Positions 6,690 through 18,963 of a stretch of 18,963 nt of DNA are shown here, piece by piece. Origin of the DNA: an uncultured Butyricicoccus sp. (GTDB taxonomy: Bacteria; Bacillota; Clostridia; Oscillospirales; Butyricicoccaceae). The first letter of the stretch is position 1, and every line of letters starts with the position of its first letter. The stretch is taken from positions 1-18,963 of the forward strand of contig UQVU01000020.1 in the NCBI GenBank assembly GCA_900544475.1, in the 5' to 3' direction. The notes below the pieces were generated by a model. The model worked only from the letters and a program-made list of their open reading frames with translations, had not been told where the DNA came from and searched no databases. The translations under genes and the position numbers were made by a program.

Positions 6690-9131
6690 TTACATCGACT
6701 CCGGTGCTTCTACGCCGATGAGCTTCAGCACGTTCTCGATGGTCTGCTTCGCCGCGAGGCACAGGGTCAGACGCGCATCGCGTACCGCCGGCTCCGCGTC
6801 CTTGATGCGGCAGGCGTTGTAGAAGTGGTGGAACTGCTGTGCCAGCGCGACAGCGTACTTATTGAGGCGCGACGGGTCACGGCTGACGGCGGACTGCACG
6901 ATCTCCTCGGGCAGCAGCGCGATCTGCTTGATGAGCTGACGCTCGTCCGCGCCGGTCAGCACGGAAAGGTCGGTCTTTGCGGTGTCCGGCAGGGCGATGC
7001 CGCTCTCCTGTGCGTTCTTGAGCACGGAGCAGATGCGGGCGTGCGCGTACTGGACGTAGTAGAGCGGGTTGTCGGAGTCCTGCTTGATGGCAAGGTCGAG
7101 GTCGAACTCCATCTGGGTCTCCGCCGCGCGGGAGTTGAAGAAGAAACGCGCCGCATCGACCGGAATTTCGTCGAGCAGGTCGGTCAGCGTCAGGCTCTTG
7201 CCGGTACGCTTGGACATACGGACGACCTCGCCGCCCTGCATCATGCGCACGAGCTGCATGAGCACGATCTCCAGACGGTGCGAGCCGTCAAGGCCGAGCG
7301 CATCGAGCGCACACTGGAGGCGCTTTACATGGCCGTGGTGGTCGGCGCCCCAGATATTGATAACGCGGTCAAAGCCGCGCTTTTCGAACTTGTTGCGGTG
7401 GTAGGCAATATCGGCCGCAAAGTAGGTGTAGAAACCGTTTGCGCGGCGCAGAACGTCGTCCTTGTCGCAGCCGAAATCGGTCGAGCGCAGCCAGAGTGCG
7501 CCGTCCTCGGTCTCGTAGGTCGCGCCCTTTGCGGTCAGCATATCGATGGTCTCCTTGACGTAGCCGCTCTCGTGCAGGGTGGACTCGCGGAACCAGACAT
7601 CGTAGTTGATCTTATAGCGCTTGAGGTCGCGCTCCATGCGGGCGATGTTGGTCGGCAGACCGTAGCCCTCGATGATGGCGAAGCGCTCCTCCGGGGTCTT
7701 TTCAAGCAGACTGTCGCCGTACTGCTCCACAAGGTCGTGCGCGAGCGCCTTGATGTCGTCGCCCTGATACCAGGAAGCGTCGAACTCGATAGCGTCCTCG
7801 CCCTTTACCTCCTGAATATAGCGGCCCTCGACCGAATGCGCGAACTTGTCGACCTGATTGCCGGCGTCGTTGATGTAGAACTCGCGGGTGACGTCGTTGC
7901 CCGACCAGTCGAGCACAGACGACAGGCAGTCGCCCAGAACGCCGCCGCGTGCGTTGCCCATGTGCATCGGGCCGGTGGGGTTCGCGGAAACGAACTCGAC
8001 CATGACCGTCTCCGGCTTTGCAGCCTTGGTGCGGCCGTAGTTCTCGCCCATCTCGAACACGCCGCGAACGGCCTTCTCGTACCAGCTCTGGTTCAGGGTG
8101 AAGTTCATGAAGCCCGGGCCTGCGATGGTCACGGTGTCGAAAATGCTGTCCGAAAGGTCGAGGTTCGCGACAATCGACTCCGCAATCTTGCGCGGCGCCA
8201 TGTGCAGCGGCTTTGCGCACTGCATGGCGAAGGTGGATGCCCAGTCGCCGTTCGAAGAATCCTTCGGGGTTTCTACCGCGACCGGCGGAATGTTGCCCTC
8301 GGGCAGCTCGCCTGCTGCGACTGCCTCGCAAGCGGACTTCTGGCCGTCGAAGCCGAGGAAGATGGTCTTTGCGTAGTTCGGGTTGCTCTTTGCGGTGCGG
8401 GCTGCTGCCAGCGCCATATCGTCATTGTTCGAGCAGATAATCGCGACGCCGTCCGGGAACTTGCTCATGATGCCTTCCATCGCGGTAACTGCGAGGTCAG
8501 CGGTCGCATTTGCGTACTGGGTCTCGTTGTCGAGGAACTCGCCGCCGGCCTCGGTGATGCCTTCGCGGTAGCCGTCCATGCGGGCGGTGTTGGTGGAGTC
8601 GCCCTGAACGCCTGCGATCTCGATGCACTTGATCTCGTCCCAGCCGTTTGCCTTGGCAGCCTCGACTGCGGCCTTTGCGCCTTCCTTAGCGGCCTCCTTG
8701 TTGCCGGTGCCGACGAAGGCGAGGCACTTGTCGGAGTCGATGTTGGTGTCATATGCTACGACCGGCTTGTCGGTGCTTGCGATAGCGGTTGCAACTGCTT
8801 CGGACTGAAGCGGAGCGATCAGGTAGCCGTCATAGTCGGCAACGAGGTCGGTCTGGATGGAGTTGAGCTGCTCCTCGTAGTAGGTCTCTCCCGGAGGGCC
8901 GTAGATGGACAGCTTGACTTCTTCCGGATGGTCCTTCTCGTAGGCTTCCGCACCGGCCTGAATGATGTTCCAGAACTCAGCGGCGTTGGTCTTGAGCGTC
9001 ATGCGGATCTTGTAAGGCTCGTTCGAAGCGTTGTCCGAACCGCCTGCCGGGGCGTCGCCGCCGCCGCACGCTGCGAGGCTCATTGCCATCGTTGCTGCCA
9101 TCAGAGCCGCCATAAGTCTTTTCTTCATCAT
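6690..9131 (-). CDS. argS: Chimeric ORF: sugar-binding lipoprotein N-terminus fused to arginyl-tRNA synthetase lacking its N-terminus
   Basis: A single 813-codon frame. The start is the second ATG (9131), six bases after AAAAGGAGAG. Residues 1-22 are a lipoprotein signal with lipobox LAAC (Cys22). Residues about 40-272 are a type 1 periplasmic sugar-binding protein (GYLIAPLQSEAV, VVAYDTNIDS, FLGFDGQKSACEA), which ends some 50-60 residues early. From about 273-280 the sequence becomes arginyl-tRNA synthetase: SSNGDWASTFAMQ (292-304), HIGH-type motif HMGN at 390-393 in SANPTGPMHMGNARG, and KMSKS-type MSKRTGK at 639-645. The anticodon-binding DALR domain runs to the end. ArgRS lacks about 20-25 residues including its start; no alternative start codon is visible at the join. 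As written, ArgRS would be exported and useless. The join is either a deletion fusion or an assembly chimera. The S41 gene follows 50 bases later. Confidence 0.9.
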   Translation of the reverse strand: MMKKRLMAALMAATMAMSLAACGGGDAPAGGSDNASNEPYKIRMTLKTNAAEFWNIIQAGAEAYEKDHPEEVKLSIYGPPGETYYEEQLNSIQTDLVADYDGYLIAPLQSEAVATAIASTDKPVVAYDTNIDSDKCLAFVGTGNKEAAKEGAKAAVEAAKANGWDEIKCIEIAGVQGDSTNTARMDGYREGITEAGGEFLDNETQYANATADLAVTAMEGIMSKFPDGVAIICSNNDDMALAAARTAKSNPNYAKTIFLGFDGQKSACEAVAAGELPEGNIPPVAVETPKDSSNGDWASTFAMQCAKPLHMAPRKIAESIVANLDLSDSIFDTVTIAGPGFMNFTLNQSWYEKAVRGVFEMGENYGRTKAAKPETVMVEFVSANPTGPMHMGNARGGVLGDCLSSVLDWSGNDVTREFYINDAGNQVDKFAHSVEGRYIQEVKGEDAIEFDASWYQGDDIKALAHDLVEQYGDSLLEKTPEERFAIIEGYGLPTNIARMERDLKRYKINYDVWFRESTLHESGYVKETIDMLTAKGATYETEDGALWLRSTDFGCDKDDVLRRANGFYTYFAADIAYHRNKFEKRGFDRVINIWGADHHGHVKRLQCALDALGLDGSHRLEIVLMQLVRMMQGGEVVRMSKRTGKSLTLTDLLDEIPVDAARFFFNSRAAETQMEFDLDLAIKQDSDNPLYYVQYAHARICSVLKNAQESGIALPDTAKTDLSVLTGADERQLIKQIALLPEEIVQSAVSRDPSRLNKYAVALAQQFHHFYNACRIKDAEPAVRDARLTLCLAAKQTIENVLKLIGVEAPESM

Positions 9132-9217
9132 AGTGAACTCTCCTTTTCTCTTCACTCTCTTTTGTGATGCACGGTTCTCTCTGTGCTTTTCTGTGCTTCC
9201 GTGCTCTTTATGTGCTT

Positions 9218-14227: not shown

Positions 14228-14555
14228 ACTCTGTCGAACCGACAGTCTTTGCCGGCCGCAAGGCCGGCTCTTAGACTGTCGCAAAACTATCGTTTTGCCG
14301 ACAATCTGTGTTCTGACAGCGCTTCGCGCCGCAAAACACGGACGGAAAAAAGTTCCTATACAGAAACTTTTTTCTCTCTCAGCGTATAAAAAACGAGGTA
14401 CACGCCCCCGGTTTTTATCACTTTGCTTTGCAAAGTGTATTTTATGCGCGCTGTCGCGCGATAGTTCGTAATTTCAATTTAAGACCATTGGGGACAGATG
14501 GTGTCGGCCGCAAGGCCGGCTCTTTCTCTATACGCCCCATGACAGGAGGAATTTC
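14228..14555. repeat. Hairpin-rich repeat region between the regulator and methyltransferase genes
   Basis: No gene in these 328 bases. In order: CTGTCG AAC CGACAG (14231-14245); GCCGGCC GCAA GGCCGGC (14251-14268); CTGTCGCAAAAC against GTTTTGCCGACA (14276-14303); GCGC TTC GCGC (14319-14329); the A-rich stem GAAAAAAGTT/AACTTTTTTC (14345-14374), which could end the regulator transcript; the AGGTACACGCCCC-loop hairpin (14386-14418); CACTTTGC TTT GCAAAGTG (14419-14437); GCGCG CTGT CGCGC (14446-14459). A second cggccgcaaggccggctctt lies at 14505-14524, identical to 14253-14272. The CGACAG/CTGTCG arms can pair in alternative ways. Confidence 0.8.
14386..14418 (+). repeat. Invariant-loop hairpin, copy 1
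   Basis: Stem ATAAAAAACG (14386-14395) pairs with CGGTTTTTAT (14409-14418), nine of ten positions, around the loop AGGTACACGCCCC (14396-14408). The same 13-base loop recurs at 18633-18645 and, inverted, at 18848-18860, each with different but complementary stems. Confidence 0.8.
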
Positions 14556-15251
14556 ATGCCGCTGACGACCGAAACGCTGCCGAACGGCTTGACGCTTTTT
14601 CAGGACGACCGATTTTTCAAGCTCGGGCAGGACAGCGTGCTGCTCTCCGCCTTTGCGAAGATACGCCGCCGGGCGAAGGTGCTCGACCTCGGCTGCGGCA
14701 CGGGTGCGCTTGCGCTGCTCTGCTGGCGCGAGGACCTGACGCTCACCGGACTCGAAATACAGCCGGAAGCGCTCGACCTGTTCCGCCGCTCCATCGAGGA
14801 AAACGGCCTTTCGAACGTCACCGCGCTCGAGGGCGATATGCGGCAGATGCGCACCCTCCTGCCCCACGGCAGCATGGACTACGTCATCTGTAACCCGCCC
14901 TATTTCGGCCGCAATACCGGCGCCGCCGCGCCCATGGCGGAAAAGCGCACCGCCCGACAGGACATCTGCTGCACGGTCGAGGAGGTCGCGGTAGCCGCGT
15001 CCTTCGTGCTGCATACCGGCGGCAAGGCGGCGTTCGTGTTCCGTCCCGAGCGGCTGTGGGTGCTGCTCGAGGCGCTTGACCGCGTGCGGCTCGTCCCCAA
15101 GCGCCTGCGCTTTGTCCACCAGAACGCCCTCGCCTCGCCAAGCGCCGTGCTCGTAGAGTGCCGCAAGGGCGGCAGCGCCGAGGGACTTATCGTCGAACCG
15201 CCGCTGCTCGTAGAAAGCGAAGAATATCTAAAAATCTACGGAAAAATGTAA
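14556..15251 (+). CDS. TrmN6-like class I methyltransferase
   Basis: A 231-residue methyltransferase. The start ATG follows AGGAGG by six bases. The N-terminal QDDRFFKLGQDSVLLSAFA (16-34) is typical of the TrmN6/YfiC-YabB group, which methylates N6 of A37 in tRNA-Val in E. coli. The S-adenosylmethionine motif VLDLGCGTGALALL is at 42-55 and the amino-methyltransferase motif IV NPPYF at 113-117. In Bacillus the homologue yabB sits beside rsmI (yabC), and here rsmI follows in the same direction. The group is well supported; the exact target in this organism is inferred. Confidence 0.88.
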   Translation: MPLTTETLPNGLTLFQDDRFFKLGQDSVLLSAFAKIRRRAKVLDLGCGTGALALLCWREDLTLTGLEIQPEALDLFRRSIEENGLSNVTALEGDMRQMRTLLPHGSMDYVICNPPYFGRNTGAAAPMAEKRTARQDICCTVEEVAVAASFVLHTGGKAAFVFRPERLWVLLEALDRVRLVPKRLRFVHQNALASPSAVLVECRKGGSAEGLIVEPPLLVESEEYLKIYGKM

Positions 15252-15263
15252 AGAGCACAGAAA

Positions 15264-15375
15264 AGAGTGTAGAGTTGAGAGTGCAGAGTGAAGTTATGGT
15301 ATCGCCTGCGGCGATTCAAATCGTGCGCTCTGCGCACACCGCCTCTCCACTCTCCACTCTTCACTCTTCACTCTC
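15264..15375. repeat. Foldback element with heptad-repeat arms upstream of rsmI
   Basis: The left arm is four 7-base units of the form AGAGTGN (15264-15291). The right arm is four units NCACTCT (15347-15374), its reverse complement. Between them lie two perfect triloop hairpins, ATCGCC TGC GGCGAT (15301-15315) and GTGCGC TCT GCGCAC (15323-15337). The arms can pair with a mismatch about every seventh base. The element fills the gap between the trmN6-like gene and the rsmI ribosome binding site and holds no gene. Confidence 0.78.
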
Positions 15376-15391
15376 AAAAAGGGGTTTTCTT

Positions 15392-16240
15392 ATGTCAATT
15401 CTCTATCTTGTCGCGACTCCGATCGGCAATCTGGGCGATCTTTCTCCCCGTGCACGTGAAATCCTCGGCACGGTGGATTTCATCGCCGCCGAGGACACGC
15501 GCGTTACGCAGAAGCTGCTGAACGCCTGCGAGCTGCCAAAAAAGCCGATGATTTCGTACTACGAGCATAACCGCCGTGCACGCGGCGAGGTCGTACTCGA
15601 GCGTATGCTCGCAGGGGAGTCCTGTGCGCTCGTGACCGACGCGGGCACGCCTGCGGTTTCCGACCCCGGCGAGGACCTTGTCGCGCTGTGCGCCGAGCAC
15701 GATATTCCGGTCATTCCGGTGCCCGGCTGCTGCGCCGCCGTCTGCGCACTCGCCGCAAGCGGTCTGCCGACCGGCCGCTGGTGCTTCGAGGGCTTTCTTT
15801 CGGTGAATAAAAAGGCGCGGCGCGAGCATCTGGACGCGCTCCGGAACGAAAAGCGCACGATGATTTTCTACGAAGCGCCGCACAAGCTGTGCGCGACCCT
15901 GCGCGACCTTGCCTCGGCCTTCGGCGAGGAGCGCCGCCTTTCGCTCTCGCGCGAGCTGACCAAGCTGCACGAGCAGACGCTGCGCATGACCATCGGCGAC
16001 GCGGTCCGCTACTTCGACGAAAACGCGCCGCGCGGCGAGTTCGTCCTCATCGTGGAGGGCGCGCCCGACGAGCCGGAGACCGAAGCGAGCGAGGAGGAGC
16101 GTCTGGCTGCCGCCGCTGAGGCAGTCCGCCGCCGCATCGAGCAGGGGCAGACCCAGAAGGACGCCGTGAAAGCGATCTCCGCCGAGGCCGGCGTCAAGAA
16201 GAACGCCCTCTACCGCTACGTGCTCGAAAACGAAGAATAA
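15392..16240 (+). CDS. rsmI: 16S rRNA (cytidine-1402 2'-O)-methyltransferase RsmI
   Basis: A 282-residue protein of normal RsmI length that 2'-O-methylates C1402 of 16S rRNA with S-adenosylmethionine. The start ATG at 15392 lies seven bases after AAAGGGG; the open frame upstream runs through the repeat element and is not coding. The tetrapyrrole-methylase fold is clear: LYLVATPIGNLGDLS (4-18), FIAAEDTRVTQKLL (30-43), LVTDAGTPAVSDPG (80-93), and EAPHKL with SRELTKLHE (161-194). A charged linker leads to a C-terminal helix-turn-helix-like segment (QKDAVKAISAEAGVKKNALY, 255-274), as in other RsmI. It probably forms a unit with the trmN6-like gene; a terminator follows. Confidence 0.96.
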   Translation: MSILYLVATPIGNLGDLSPRAREILGTVDFIAAEDTRVTQKLLNACELPKKPMISYYEHNRRARGEVVLERMLAGESCALVTDAGTPAVSDPGEDLVALCAEHDIPVIPVPGCCAAVCALAASGLPTGRWCFEGFLSVNKKARREHLDALRNEKRTMIFYEAPHKLCATLRDLASAFGEERRLSLSRELTKLHEQTLRMTIGDAVRYFDENAPRGEFVLIVEGAPDEPETEASEEERLAAAAEAVRRRIEQGQTQKDAVKAISAEAGVKKNALYRYVLENEE

Positions 16241-16248
16241 TATGAACG

Positions 16249-16284
16249 GGACGCAGTTTTTTTCTCTCTGCGTCCTCCTTTTTT
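16249..16284 (+). terminator. Intrinsic terminator after rsmI
   Basis: GGACGCAG (16249-16256) pairs perfectly with CTGCGTCC (16268-16275) around a T-rich loop and is followed by TCC and six T. It lies eight bases past the rsmI stop and separates rsmI from the two-component genes. Confidence 0.88.
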
Positions 16285-16319
16285 ATGTCAATGTTCACAC
16301 AACGAACAAACAGCTGCCG

Positions 16320-16325
16320 TATAAT
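16320..16325 (+). promoter_or_regulatory. Candidate -10 box of the two-component operon
   Basis: A perfect TATAAT lies 32 bases before the response-regulator start. No good -35 lies at 16-18 bases; TTCACA (16294-16299) is 20 bases away. The poor -35 would fit an activator-dependent promoter. TGTTC and GAACA (16293-16309) form a short inverted repeat over that region. Confidence 0.5.
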
Positions 16326-16357
16326 CTATTCATCTAAGTTGAAAAGGCGGAATTTTT

Positions 16358-17038
16358 ATGTCTACTATTCTCATTGCGGACGACGAGGCTCGTATCCGCC
16401 GACTCGTCAGCGATTTTCTCAAGCGCGACGGCCACACCATCCTCGAGGCGGCCGACGGCAAGACCGCGCTCGAACTCATCGAAAACCGCCGTCCCACGCT
16501 CGATCTTGCCATTCTGGACGTCATGATGCCGGGCATGGACGGTTTTGAGGTGCTGCGCGAGGTGCGCGAGCAGGAAACCGGCGACAACCACCTGCCCGTC
16601 ATGCTGCTGACCGCACGCGCCGAGGACGCCGACCAGGTGCGCGGCCTGGAGGGCGGCGCGGACGACTACGTGACCAAGCCCTTCTCCCCTATCGTGCTCG
16701 CCGCCCGCGTGCGCACCCTGCTCAAGCGCGAGGGACGCGCGGCTTCCCCCATCGAAACCATCGGCTGCCTGTCGGTCAACGAGCTGCGGCGCGAGGTGCT
16801 CGTCGAGGGTCAGCCGGTCGAGCTCACCCCCAAGGAGTACGAGCTGCTCATCTATTTCAAGAAGAACCGCTCGATCGCCCTCTCCCGCGAGAGCATCCTG
16901 AATGCCGTCTGGGGCTACGACTACTTCGGCGACCTGCGGACGGTCGATACCCATGTCAAAAAGCTGCGCGCCAAGCTCGGCGACTGCGGCTCGATGATCG
17001 AAACCGTGCGCGGCTACGGATACCGCTTTGAAGGATGA
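16358..17038 (+). CDS. OmpR/PhoB-family response regulator
   Basis: A 226-residue DNA-binding response regulator; the start ATG follows AAAGGCGG. The receiver domain (1-118) has the acidic pocket Asp8/Asp9, phospho-acceptor Asp54 in AILDVMMPGMDG, Thr85 and Lys107 in YVTKPF. The winged-helix effector domain (about 130-225) carries LTPKEYELLIYF and RTVDTHVKKLRAKLG, then ETVRGYGYRFE. It is phosphorylated by the histidine kinase encoded next, whose start codon overlaps its stop (ATGA). The signal and targets are unknown; no neighbouring gene clearly reveals them. Confidence 0.95.
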   Translation: MSTILIADDEARIRRLVSDFLKRDGHTILEAADGKTALELIENRRPTLDLAILDVMMPGMDGFEVLREVREQETGDNHLPVMLLTARAEDADQVRGLEGGADDYVTKPFSPIVLAARVRTLLKREGRAASPIETIGCLSVNELRREVLVEGQPVELTPKEYELLIYFKKNRSIALSRESILNAVWGYDYFGDLRTVDTHVKKLRAKLGDCGSMIETVRGYGYRFEG

Positions 17039-18561
17039 AGCCGAAACCGCATTCCATCCGCTTCAAGTTTTTCTCCGTCATCAGTCTGGTCGCGCTCGTC
17101 TTTATCGGTCTGCTGCTCGTCCTCAACCTGTTCTTCTACAAGGACTATTTCATGATGACGCGAAAAAACAGCCTGCGCGACGCCTTCAACACGGTCTGCG
17201 CCAGCTATACCGGCGACACGGACGACATCGTGACCATGCTCGACAGCTACGAGAGCCGCTCCGCCATCCGACTCGCCGTGGTGATGGACGACGGCACGAT
17301 TCTCACCTCGTCTTTTCTCCATGACCGCGACGAAAGCGGCGTGCCGGGGTTCAATTTCGGCATGAATGAGCAGCAGTTCCGCAGTATCGCGGTTCTCGCC
17401 TCGGTCATGCAGAACGCGGACTGGTCCTCGCTTGCCGTGCATCAGTACCGCTTCACCAACGTCTGTCTGCGCGACAACGACCAGTATCTCTGCCTCATCG
17501 GCTCGCTCGACACGGACGAGGGCAGCTACCTCATCGCCTATATGCCGTTCGCGTTCATCGAGCAGAACTCCTCGCTCAACCTCGTGTTCCTGCTGATCGC
17601 AGGCGGCTGCGCCCTGCTCATCTGCCTTGTGCTCGCATTTTTCTTCTCGCGCGAGTTTACCCGGCCGCTCGTTTCCATGGCGGCGCTCGCCGACCGCATG
17701 AGCGAGCTCGATTTTTCAAGCCAGTACGTCGGCAAGGGCAAGCGCGAGTCAGACGAAATCGAGCAGCTTGGCCAGTCGCTCAACCGGCTGAGTGCCTACC
17801 TCGAACAGGCCATCGGAGAGCTCAAGCAGTCCAACGACCAGCTGGCGCAGGAGGTCCGCGAAAAAGAGCGCATCGACAATATGCGCCGCGAGTTCATCGT
17901 CAACGTGTCCCACGAGCTGAAAACGCCGATCGCCCTCATTCAGGGTTACGCCGAGGGCCTGACCGCCGGCGTGGCGGACGACCCCGAGGACCGCAAGTTC
18001 TACTGCGACACCATCGCGGACGAAGCCAGCCACATGAACCGTCTGGTCATGCAGCTGCTCAGTCTGTCCAAGCTCGAGCTCGGCGCGGAGCAGACCTTCT
18101 TCGAGGAAATCGACCTGTACGAGATGTGCCACGACGCGGTGCAGAAAACCGCCGTGCTGTGTGAGAGCAAGGGACTCAGCGTTGACTGCGAGAACACGCA
18201 CGTGACCGTCCGCACGGACAGCGGCCTGCTCGACCAGGTGCTCATGAATTACCTGTCGAACGCCATCCGCTATACCACGGAGGGGGGTAAAATCGTGATT
18301 TCTGCCTCCCGTGACGAAAAAACCGCCCGTCTGACCGTTTTCAATGAGGGCGAGGGTCTGCCCGAGGAAGAGCTGCCGAAGATCTGGGAGAAATTCTACC
18401 GCACCGACCGCGCCCGTACCCGTGAGGCCGGCGGCACCGGCATCGGCCTGTCGCTCGTCCGCGCCATCGCGGATACCCTCCACGGCGACTGCGGCGCCGA
18501 AAACGTCCCCGGCGGCATCGCGTTCTGGTTCACCCTGCCCAATGAACTGTCGCAAAACTAA
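17035..18561 (+). CDS. Membrane sensor histidine kinase
   Basis: A 508-residue sensor kinase whose ATG overlaps the response-regulator stop by four bases, showing translational coupling. There are two membrane segments (about 11-34 and 182-204) with an extracellular sensing domain of about 145 residues between them. A HAMP domain (205-257) and a coiled-coil linker (255-285) follow. The HisKA domain has His293 in FIVNVSHELKTP. The ATPase domain has the N box with Asn409 (MNYLSNAIRYT), G1 around FNEGEGLPEE (436-445), the F box KFYR and G2 GGTGIGLSL (466-474). The last three codons and stop lie inside a palindromic repeat (18546-18583), so the original C-terminus may have been slightly different. 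Confidence 0.95.
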   Translation: MKPKPHSIRFKFFSVISLVALVFIGLLLVLNLFFYKDYFMMTRKNSLRDAFNTVCASYTGDTDDIVTMLDSYESRSAIRLAVVMDDGTILTSSFLHDRDESGVPGFNFGMNEQQFRSIAVLASVMQNADWSSLAVHQYRFTNVCLRDNDQYLCLIGSLDTDEGSYLIAYMPFAFIEQNSSLNLVFLLIAGGCALLICLVLAFFFSREFTRPLVSMAALADRMSELDFSSQYVGKGKRESDEIEQLGQSLNRLSAYLEQAIGELKQSNDQLAQEVREKERIDNMRREFIVNVSHELKTPIALIQGYAEGLTAGVADDPEDRKFYCDTIADEASHMNRLVMQLLSLSKLELGAEQTFFEEIDLYEMCHDAVQKTAVLCESKGLSVDCENTHVTVRTDSGLLDQVLMNYLSNAIRYTTEGGKIVISASRDEKTARLTVFNEGEGLPEEELPKIWEKFYRTDRARTREAGGTGIGLSLVRAIADTLHGDCGAENVPGGIAFWFTLPNELSQN

Positions 18562-18622
18562 CGTTTTGCCGACAAGTTGTGTTTGCGGCGGGGTGAGGGC
18601 ACCCCGAGCATTCGTTCAAGGT

Positions 18623-18655
18623 CAGAAAACCGAGGTACACGCCCCCGGTTTTCTG
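18623..18655 (+). repeat. Invariant-loop hairpin, copy 2
   Basis: Stem CAGAAAACCG (18623-18632) pairs perfectly with CGGTTTTCTG (18646-18655) around AGGTACACGCCCC (18633-18645). The last stem base is shared with the next hairpin. Confidence 0.85.
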
Positions 18656-18703
18656 GAATTTGCAAAGCAAATTCCATTAAATACGTGCGCGAAGCGCACG
18701 AAA

Positions 18704-18729
18704 AAAGGCACGCCCAAAGGCGTGCCTTT
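18704..18729 (-). terminator. Intrinsic terminator-like hairpin, stronger on the minus strand
   Basis: AAAGGCACGCC and GGCGTGCCTTT form an 11-base stem with a 4-base loop. On the minus strand the stem ends in a run of six T (18701-18706). On the plus strand only three T follow. It could stop transcripts coming from the right of the window and, less well, those from the histidine kinase. Confidence 0.6.
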
Positions 18730-18838
18730 CGCGTCCCTCCGGGACGCCGCGCACACTGCGTGTGCGCTTCCCCGCCCAATCTTGCCTTCGGCAAGGCGGG
18801 CGGGCAGACCTGCCGCAGCAGGCCGCATAAAATTCCCC

Positions 18839-18869
18839 GTAAAAGTCGGGGCGTGTACCTGACTTTTAC
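18839..18869 (-). repeat. Invariant-loop hairpin, copy 3 (inverted)
   Basis: On the minus strand the stem GTAAAAGTC pairs perfectly with GACTTTTAC around the exact 13-base loop AGGTACACGCCCC (18848-18860 on the plus strand it reads GGGGCGTGTACCT). The orientation is opposite to copies 1 and 2. Confidence 0.85.
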
Positions 18870-18963
18870 TCCGCTGCCCGCGCCGTAGCGGCGCGGCCTC
18901 GTCCGCCGTGCGGACGAGAGGGGGTTATCGCCCCCGGTTTCGCAAGGAACCGGGGGCGTATCT

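Follow-up and report, generated by a model that had tools for sequence, protein, structure and literature searches.

A hairpin family in Butyricicoccaceae genomes belongs to a probable miniature transposable element that duplicates terminator hairpins

Miniature inverted-repeat transposable elements (MITEs) are non-coding, multicopy sequences of 50-1000 bp (PMC4596501), and examples such as RUP and BOX are short and intergenic, with inverted ends, target duplication and strong structure (PMC10969869). Here we describe an element family in an 18,963-nucleotide stretch of an uncultured Butyricicoccus sp. (assembly GCA_900544475.1, contig UQVU01000020.1, hereafter the window) and in its relatives. 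The element resembles MITEs in size, lack of coding sequence, multiple copies, intergenic position, strong structure, inverted ends in its common form and target duplication (46 of 117 copies, with empty sites at two loci), and differs in that the duplicated unit is an entire terminator hairpin, whose length varies, in that no source insertion sequence (IS) was found for it, and in its conserved, covarying internal hairpin (PMC10969869). The IS1202 group shares unusually long duplications, of 16-28 bp, for which that paper reports no target, but its members are autonomous and mostly 1.3-1.7 kb long (PMC10132070). REPINs and their RAYTs are likewise extragenic palindromic miniature mobile DNA forming hairpins (PMC3116915), whereas the element is a chain of several hairpins, duplicates terminators, and has no Y1 match in two genomes rich in it. 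SPRITE of Streptococcus pneumoniae is similarly enriched near gene 3' ends and associated with terminators, but is itself terminator-like (PMC3049150), whereas here it is the host's own terminator that is doubled, with the element in between. Mitochondrial repetitive hairpin-forming elements are a looser parallel as mobile hairpin modules invading intergenic DNA, although they occur in different genomes and the available part of the paper mentions no terminator duplication (PMC2800124). Neither the element family nor terminator-duplicating insertion was found described in the literature, subscription papers and preprints not being covered. CRISPR Cas1-Cas2 integration likewise copies an entire unit, often a palindrome, of roughly 30 bp, but the element shows no array or spacer-sized insert, and its target sequence changes by site.

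An earlier note on the window had drawn attention to a hairpin and proposed selection on its structure or a factor reading its loop. A regulatory hairpin standing by itself is not supported. This hairpin, hereafter C, is one module of a multi-hairpin, MITE-like intergenic element that duplicates terminators, and mobility of a carrier inserting at terminators accounts better for its spread. Alignment of 16 copies from genomes G014 and G003 and of five from G002 gives the order left palindrome (GAGACTGTCGAAAAAC-nnn-GTTTTTCGACAGTCTC in relatives), variable hairpins, C, hairpin D, G+C-rich hairpin E and right end, the last (TTTTTCGACAGACTG) being inverted relative to the left end. The common form is about 210-232 bp long between imperfect inverted ends GAGACTGTCGAAAAA...TTTTTCGACAGACTG (the pair is also written GAGRCTGTCGAAAAA / TTTTTCGACARRCTG or TGTCGAAAA...TTTTCGACA), with no gene recognised inside, and together with one terminator copy measures 239-256 bp at the 14 G014 sites, out of 15, for which a script placed both copies. 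Both end motifs were found by pattern in 56 of 157 copies, and a second form lacks them. This count, like those of 117, 151 and 160 copies and of 720 stem cells used below, comes from regular expressions in which part of the apex is preset and the arms must pair, and this arm filter dropped L123 and L130, although L123 has a duplicated terminator.

Many copies are flanked on both sides by a full copy of the site's own terminator hairpin. In the G014 subfamily, 8 of 12 aligned copies lie between two terminator-like hairpins whose sequence is specific to the site. Direct duplication of the flanks, at a score of at least 20, was detected in 46 of 117 copies as opposed to 2 of 1393 cross-site pairs, and in a larger set in 62 of 151 copies against 0 of 1795 cross-pairs, seven of the 62 being tandem repeats in L267, L273 and L281. 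Among the copies with both end motifs, it was present in 29 of 56 with fixed boundaries and in 38 of 56 over three scorings, which added L087, L092, L129, L179, L183, L196, L233, L239 and L303. The duplicated stretch starts and stops at the base of the hairpin, whatever the size of the hairpin: it is 20-43 bp long in 45 of the 46 duplications (L194, exceeding 45 bp, was left out), both edges lie at most 4 nt from the stem base in 40 of these 45, for 44 of the 45 none of 50 shuffles folds as well, and length correlates with the number of pairs (0.75). The 46 duplicated copies are situated between convergent genes in 23 cases and co-directional genes in 23, and never in a divergent (promoter) gap. 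These orientations come from a codon model (correct for all 30 of the genes it was trained on, and with its margin passed by 25 of the 46 assignments), which replaced the longest open reading frame, an unreliable guide.

The element is multicopy, and orthologous sites without it exist. In the window, the gap between the genes for an iron-dependent repressor and a methyltransferase (domain by Pfam; we take it to be TrmN6-like) holds element 1 between two GCCGGCCGCAAGGCCGGC-type terminators, while the same gap in L001, L002 and L006 spans 82-86 bp with one G+C-rich terminator. Judged by the protein of its gene at 15392-16240 (TP_methylase, presumably RsmI), which has 83-84% amino-acid identity to those of the same three loci, the window is closest to Agathobaculum. 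At the enolase terminator (gene identified by Pfam), a survey that matched 82 of 87 genomes and fetched 30 loci, 26 of them readable, found three occupied sites (L342, L345, L353) and a single terminator at the same gene pair in L354. The elements at the enolase 3' end of G014, G013 and G002 belong to different subfamilies and are each enclosed by two related local terminators, and G006, which has the gene pair of G002, shows one terminator. The features of the window are as follows, bit scores referring to the search model R1.

14251..14272, + strand: copy 1 of the terminator hairpin, GCCGGCCGCAAGGCCGGC + TCTT, flanking element 1 on the left, with a 20-mer shared with copy 2; L001, L002 and L006 have a single terminator at the site
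14273..14504, + strand: element 1 (about 232 bp), inverted ends enclosing hairpins A, B1, B2, C, D and E; extra relative to the 82-86 bp gaps
14277..14303, + strand: hairpin A of element 1, left terminal palindrome TGTCGCAAAAC...GTTTTGCCGACA, from the fold; like relatives' left ends GAGRCTGTCGAAAAAC
14345..14374, + strand: hairpin B2, recurrent GTTCC...GAAAC apex, from the fold; motif shared with elements of G013 and G012
14386..14418, + strand: hairpin C copy 1, 53.0 bits
14419..14437, + strand: hairpin D of element 1, from the fold; D module in relatives
14446..14459, + strand: hairpin E of element 1, GCGCGCTGTCGCGC, from sequence; E module in relatives
14505..14524, + strand: copy 2 of the terminator hairpin, flanking element 1 on the right
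18545..18578, + strand: hairpin A of element 2, from sequence and open reading frame
18623..18655, + strand: hairpin C copy 2, 54.7 bits
18656..18674, + strand: hairpin D of element 2, from sequence
18684..18700, + strand: hairpin E of element 2, from sequence
18839..18869, - strand: hairpin C copy 3, 47.0 bits; part of a third element, of the GGTTCC...GAAACC subtype (minus-strand sequence 18920-18963), cut by the window end

The 20-mer CGGCCGCAAGGCCGGCTCTT is common to 14253-14272 and 14505-14524. The right end of element 1 is degenerate, and none of 200 shuffles of 14272-14503 folds as well as the sequence itself (z -4.1 as RNA, -6.6 as DNA). A histidine kinase gene at 17035-18561 takes its final codons and stop (TAA, 18559-18561) from the left end of element 2, and the C-termini of relatives' histidine kinases differ from that of the window. 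Copy 3 lies too close to the window end for its flanks to be compared. Just before terminator copy 1, a palindrome at 14231-14249 (CTGTCGAACCGACAG) resembles two joined element ends, perhaps a deleted copy.

Elsewhere in the window, the gap between the TrmN6 and RsmI genes (15255-15392) is about 140 bp long with inverted GAGTGnAGAGTG-type arms, compared with about 30 bp in relatives, and its insert looks like another, unrelated miniature repeat. On the minus strand, an 821-aa frame at 6690-9155 has a periplasmic sugar-binding domain at residues 52-284 and continues from residue 285 as an arginyl-tRNA synthetase, entering its profile at position 17; it may be a natural fusion, a deletion or an assembly chimera.

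The element reaches dozens of copies per genome in Agathobaculum and Butyricicoccus relatives and is also present in other Oscillospirales. Model R1 was positive in 30 of 87 family genomes (E<=0.01), with at least 46 matches in the single-contig G014, the highest number, at least 31 in G012 and at least 22 in G002. A wider model, R2, was positive in 61 of 394 genomes of the order (E<=0.001, family members included), and the hairpin was present in all 25 loci read by eye of the 30 returned. As the number of candidates scored in each genome was capped at 79 or 18, the copy numbers from R1 and R2 are minimum values; some copies in close genomes are orthologous, so that counts are not all independent. 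In G013, 20 further regions with left ends (300 bp read) nearly all contain the same short element, which is truncated or interrupted in L302, L308, L319 and L320. In L267, L273 and L281, from distant Oscillospirales, the hairpin unit forms tandem arrays. Nine viral contigs contain the 17-mer CGAGGTACACGCCCCCG of the hairpin, with real arms in three (L138, L139, L140), the other six looking like chance matches. BLAST of plasmid and phage collections, with one element each, gave no match.

Taken together, the family is probably a non-autonomous transposable element of MITE-like type, with a target duplication defined by structure. Most transposases generate a short target duplication of fixed length; here the duplication tracks the size of the palindrome, which points to structure-led target choice. 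A transposase acting in trans would join the element ends at both bases of the terminator hairpin, which extrusion of the palindrome into a cruciform or hairpin would bring side by side; after strand transfer, repair by fill-in would then copy the whole terminator hairpin. Both neighbouring genes keep a terminator, and insertion is thus cheap for the host. With less confidence, hairpin C may be the structure read by a mobility protein, and such reading would select for paired arms and a fixed apex.

Several observations weigh against this interpretation. A score below 20 was obtained for 71 of the 117 copies, including the second form and copies with diverged terminators; in L083/L353 and L345 two related hairpins are nevertheless visible despite such a score. 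None of the three scorings found a duplication in 18 of the 56 copies with both end motifs. Of the 12 aligned copies of the G014 subfamily, L115, L120, L124 and L125 do not lie between duplicated terminator hairpins, and the stems of the two terminator copies have diverged in L108; copy 2 of the window has no duplicated terminator at its flanks (score 9). In L095 the loops of the two terminator copies are inverted, which simple fill-in does not explain. The second form has C without terminal inverted ends or duplication, between co-directional genes and also in phages. Strand compared with base skew in G014 showed no clear bias (9 of 12 and 7 of 18). Finally, no transposase or autonomous partner was found in profile searches or in the fetched stretches. 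NF033594, which we take to be the nearest model for an IS1202-type transposase, gave no match over the ISNCY_2 cut-off in the 87 family genomes, where a diverged one could be missed, and only weak matches in 13 of them. End pairs 600-3500 bp apart, sought in 392 loci and not in whole genomes, yielded only L299, an IS200-like insertion inside a copy, and the stretches fetched around five more IS200-like copies of G014 (L294-L298) contained no hairpin C. Direct repeats able to form hairpins, at spacings of 150-7000 bp, numbered 78 in the loci covered, 12 of them with more than 450 bp in between, and none looked like an autonomous element. As a separate observation, IS200-like sequences adjoin or lie inside element copies in L104 and L299.

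The earlier note's three exact copies of AGGTACACGCCCC, at 14396-14408 (+), 18633-18645 (+) and 18848-18860 (-), are real and far from chance, simple arithmetic giving about 0.0006 occurrences of an exact 13-mer per 19 kb on both strands; with up to three mismatches there are seven matches in the window against 4.55 expected, and only the exact copies stand out. Their arms are, as described, complementary and unlike between copies, but at 9-10 bp longer than had been given (ATAAAAAACG/CGGTTTTTAT with one A.G mismatch, CAGAAAACCG/CGGTTTTCTG, GTAAAAGTC/GACTTTTAC). The 13-mer, on the other hand, is not the invariant unpaired loop it had been taken for. Its outer three bases on each side face each other (positions 1-13, 2-12 and 3-11) and show compensatory changes among relatives (AGGTACACGCCCC versus AGATACATGCTCC), from GC to AT at 3-11 and from GC to CG at 2-12, and hairpin C is a 7-nt apical loop (consensus YRCNNGY) atop a 13-pair stem. 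Position 1-13 is A.C in 122 of 160 copies, A-T in 37 and G-C in one, a standard pair only in a minority. The apex is TACACGC or TACATGC in 103 of the 160, and positions 4 and 10 read T..C in 109, C..T in 46, TT in three and CC in two, in a search pattern that presets pyrimidines at 4 and 10 and C and G at 6 and 9; the coupling of 4 and 10 is possibly inflated by shared ancestry. The apex is asymmetric, with an A.C or A-T pair, a pyrimidine-pyrimidine mismatch, a purine and CNNG, and it is possible that some factor reads it in DNA or RNA.

Covariation clearly supports the proposal of a hairpin family with a conserved apex and changing yet paired stems: among 59 distinct aligned hairpins, 13 of 13 pairs have changed on both sides, with a score of 0.617 compared with 0.133 in shuffles, none of 500 being as high. 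By the earlier note's own criterion, loops without arms, or with the same arms everywhere, would have counted against conservation led by structure, and the family came through this check. All 28 exact matches to CGAGGTACACGCCCCCG in the 87 family genomes have at least 8 of 10 arm pairs, and their arms vary between genomes, two pairs being fixed by the pattern. The exact 13-mer has arms in 10 of 11 matches in 10 genomes, and lacks them in L084, from a genome outside the 87, where two long open frames run across it; among the 13 one-mismatch 17-mer matches listed, L117 and L131 are also armless. The same 13-mer sits between arms TGTTTTTTCG/CGAAAAAACG in a G003/G014 subfamily, ATAAAATCCG/CGGATTTTAT in G002 and ATTTTTCCCG/CGGGAAAAAT in phage contigs L139 and L140, and the 5' arm, mostly A-rich, is T-rich in one G003/G014 subfamily, the phage copies and some distant genomes.

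This deep covariation and the near-invariant apex would also suit a structured RNA (a 3' or 5' untranslated-region element or a small RNA) whose apex is bound by a cellular factor, mobility being secondary. The second form leaves room for such a role. Of 25 readable orthologous loci upstream of an Orn/Lys/Arg decarboxylase gene, among which L418 is a doubtful match, 7 retain hairpin C and five more (L396, L400, L404, L408, L410) have a similar hairpin with another apex. In the three phage contigs, C neighbours tail-fibre-like genes or, in the case of L138, an endolysin-like gene. The hairpin is missing, however, at the decarboxylase site in other family members, some of which have nothing alike. 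In the leaders L393-L416, hairpin modules turn over quickly within a single orthologous intergenic site, where some species have kept the position of C. Furthermore, no common downstream gene was seen, both orientations occur, half of the duplicated copies (23 of 46) lie in convergent gaps behind a terminator, and Rfam at gathering scores matched only three tRNAs in the window and nothing in the element; in 11 loci searched at E<=1 it gave four sub-threshold matches, one of which (STnc490) adjoins the copy in L104. An RNA role as the primary explanation thus appears unlikely.

Somewhat less likely still is that the arms are kept paired by templated (quasi-palindrome) repair, the covariation then reflecting mutation bias and not selection. 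Mismatch or G.U intermediates are indeed hardly found in C stems (696 of 720 cells are Watson-Crick and 8 are G.U, among copies selected to have 8 or more of 10 pairs), and terminator hairpins are equally perfect (G.U in 4 of 532 pairs). G.U being as rare in terminators, its scarcity in C stems is no sign of a role at the DNA level, which again counts against the transposition reading, and we dropped it as proof of such a role. Templated repair nevertheless leaves unexplained the near-fixed apex across genomes and the T..C/C..T coupling at positions 4 and 10 (155 of 160, pyrimidines preset by the pattern).

A REPIN/REP (repetitive extragenic palindromic) system moved by a RAYT (Y1) transposase is highly improbable. 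REPINs are REP doublets in inverted order with a tetranucleotide tag. Like them, the element is palindromic, extragenic and multicopy and can form single-stranded DNA hairpins (PMC3116915), but the term target site duplication is absent from that paper, and Y1_Tnp gave no match in the element-rich G002 and G012, genomes that are possibly incomplete, so that RAYT was rejected as the mover; one match below the cut-off was seen in G013 and nine matches in G014. That these are ordinary intrinsic or bidirectional terminators alike by chance is scarcely credible: copy 1 does score as terminator-like on the minus strand, but in an intrinsic terminator the strand is fixed and a U tract comes after the stem, whereas, as the earlier note had argued, either orientation is seen, with arm polarity reversed in one G003/G014 subfamily and in phages, and many copies already have separate terminator hairpins on both sides.

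Mini-elements of about 45-55 bp, themselves hairpins, were recognised by eye and by pattern within or beside the element. A first kind (about 45 bp), present in either orientation, lies inside the C loop in L241, L244, L246, L248, L253 and L320 and in the loop of another hairpin in L258; a second kind occurs next to C or within other loops in L234, L249, L258 and L299, and L045 has a similar sequence. As mini-elements sit in hairpin loops, these loops are also insertion sites.

Returning to transposition at terminators, a more specific scheme can be put forward only tentatively: an enzyme might recognise the extruded terminator hairpin and cut at both its bases, thereby copying the terminator and insulating the neighbouring genes, with C, whose conserved apex is non-canonical, as the counterpart hairpin on the side of the element and the loop-nested mini-elements as part of the same hairpin-targeting ecology in Oscillospirales and their phages. 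The finding bears on the unexplained 16-28 bp duplications of IS1202-group elements (PMC10132070). The element is abundant in several gut-associated genomes, and polymorphic insertions in strain collections could therefore help to find the enzyme.

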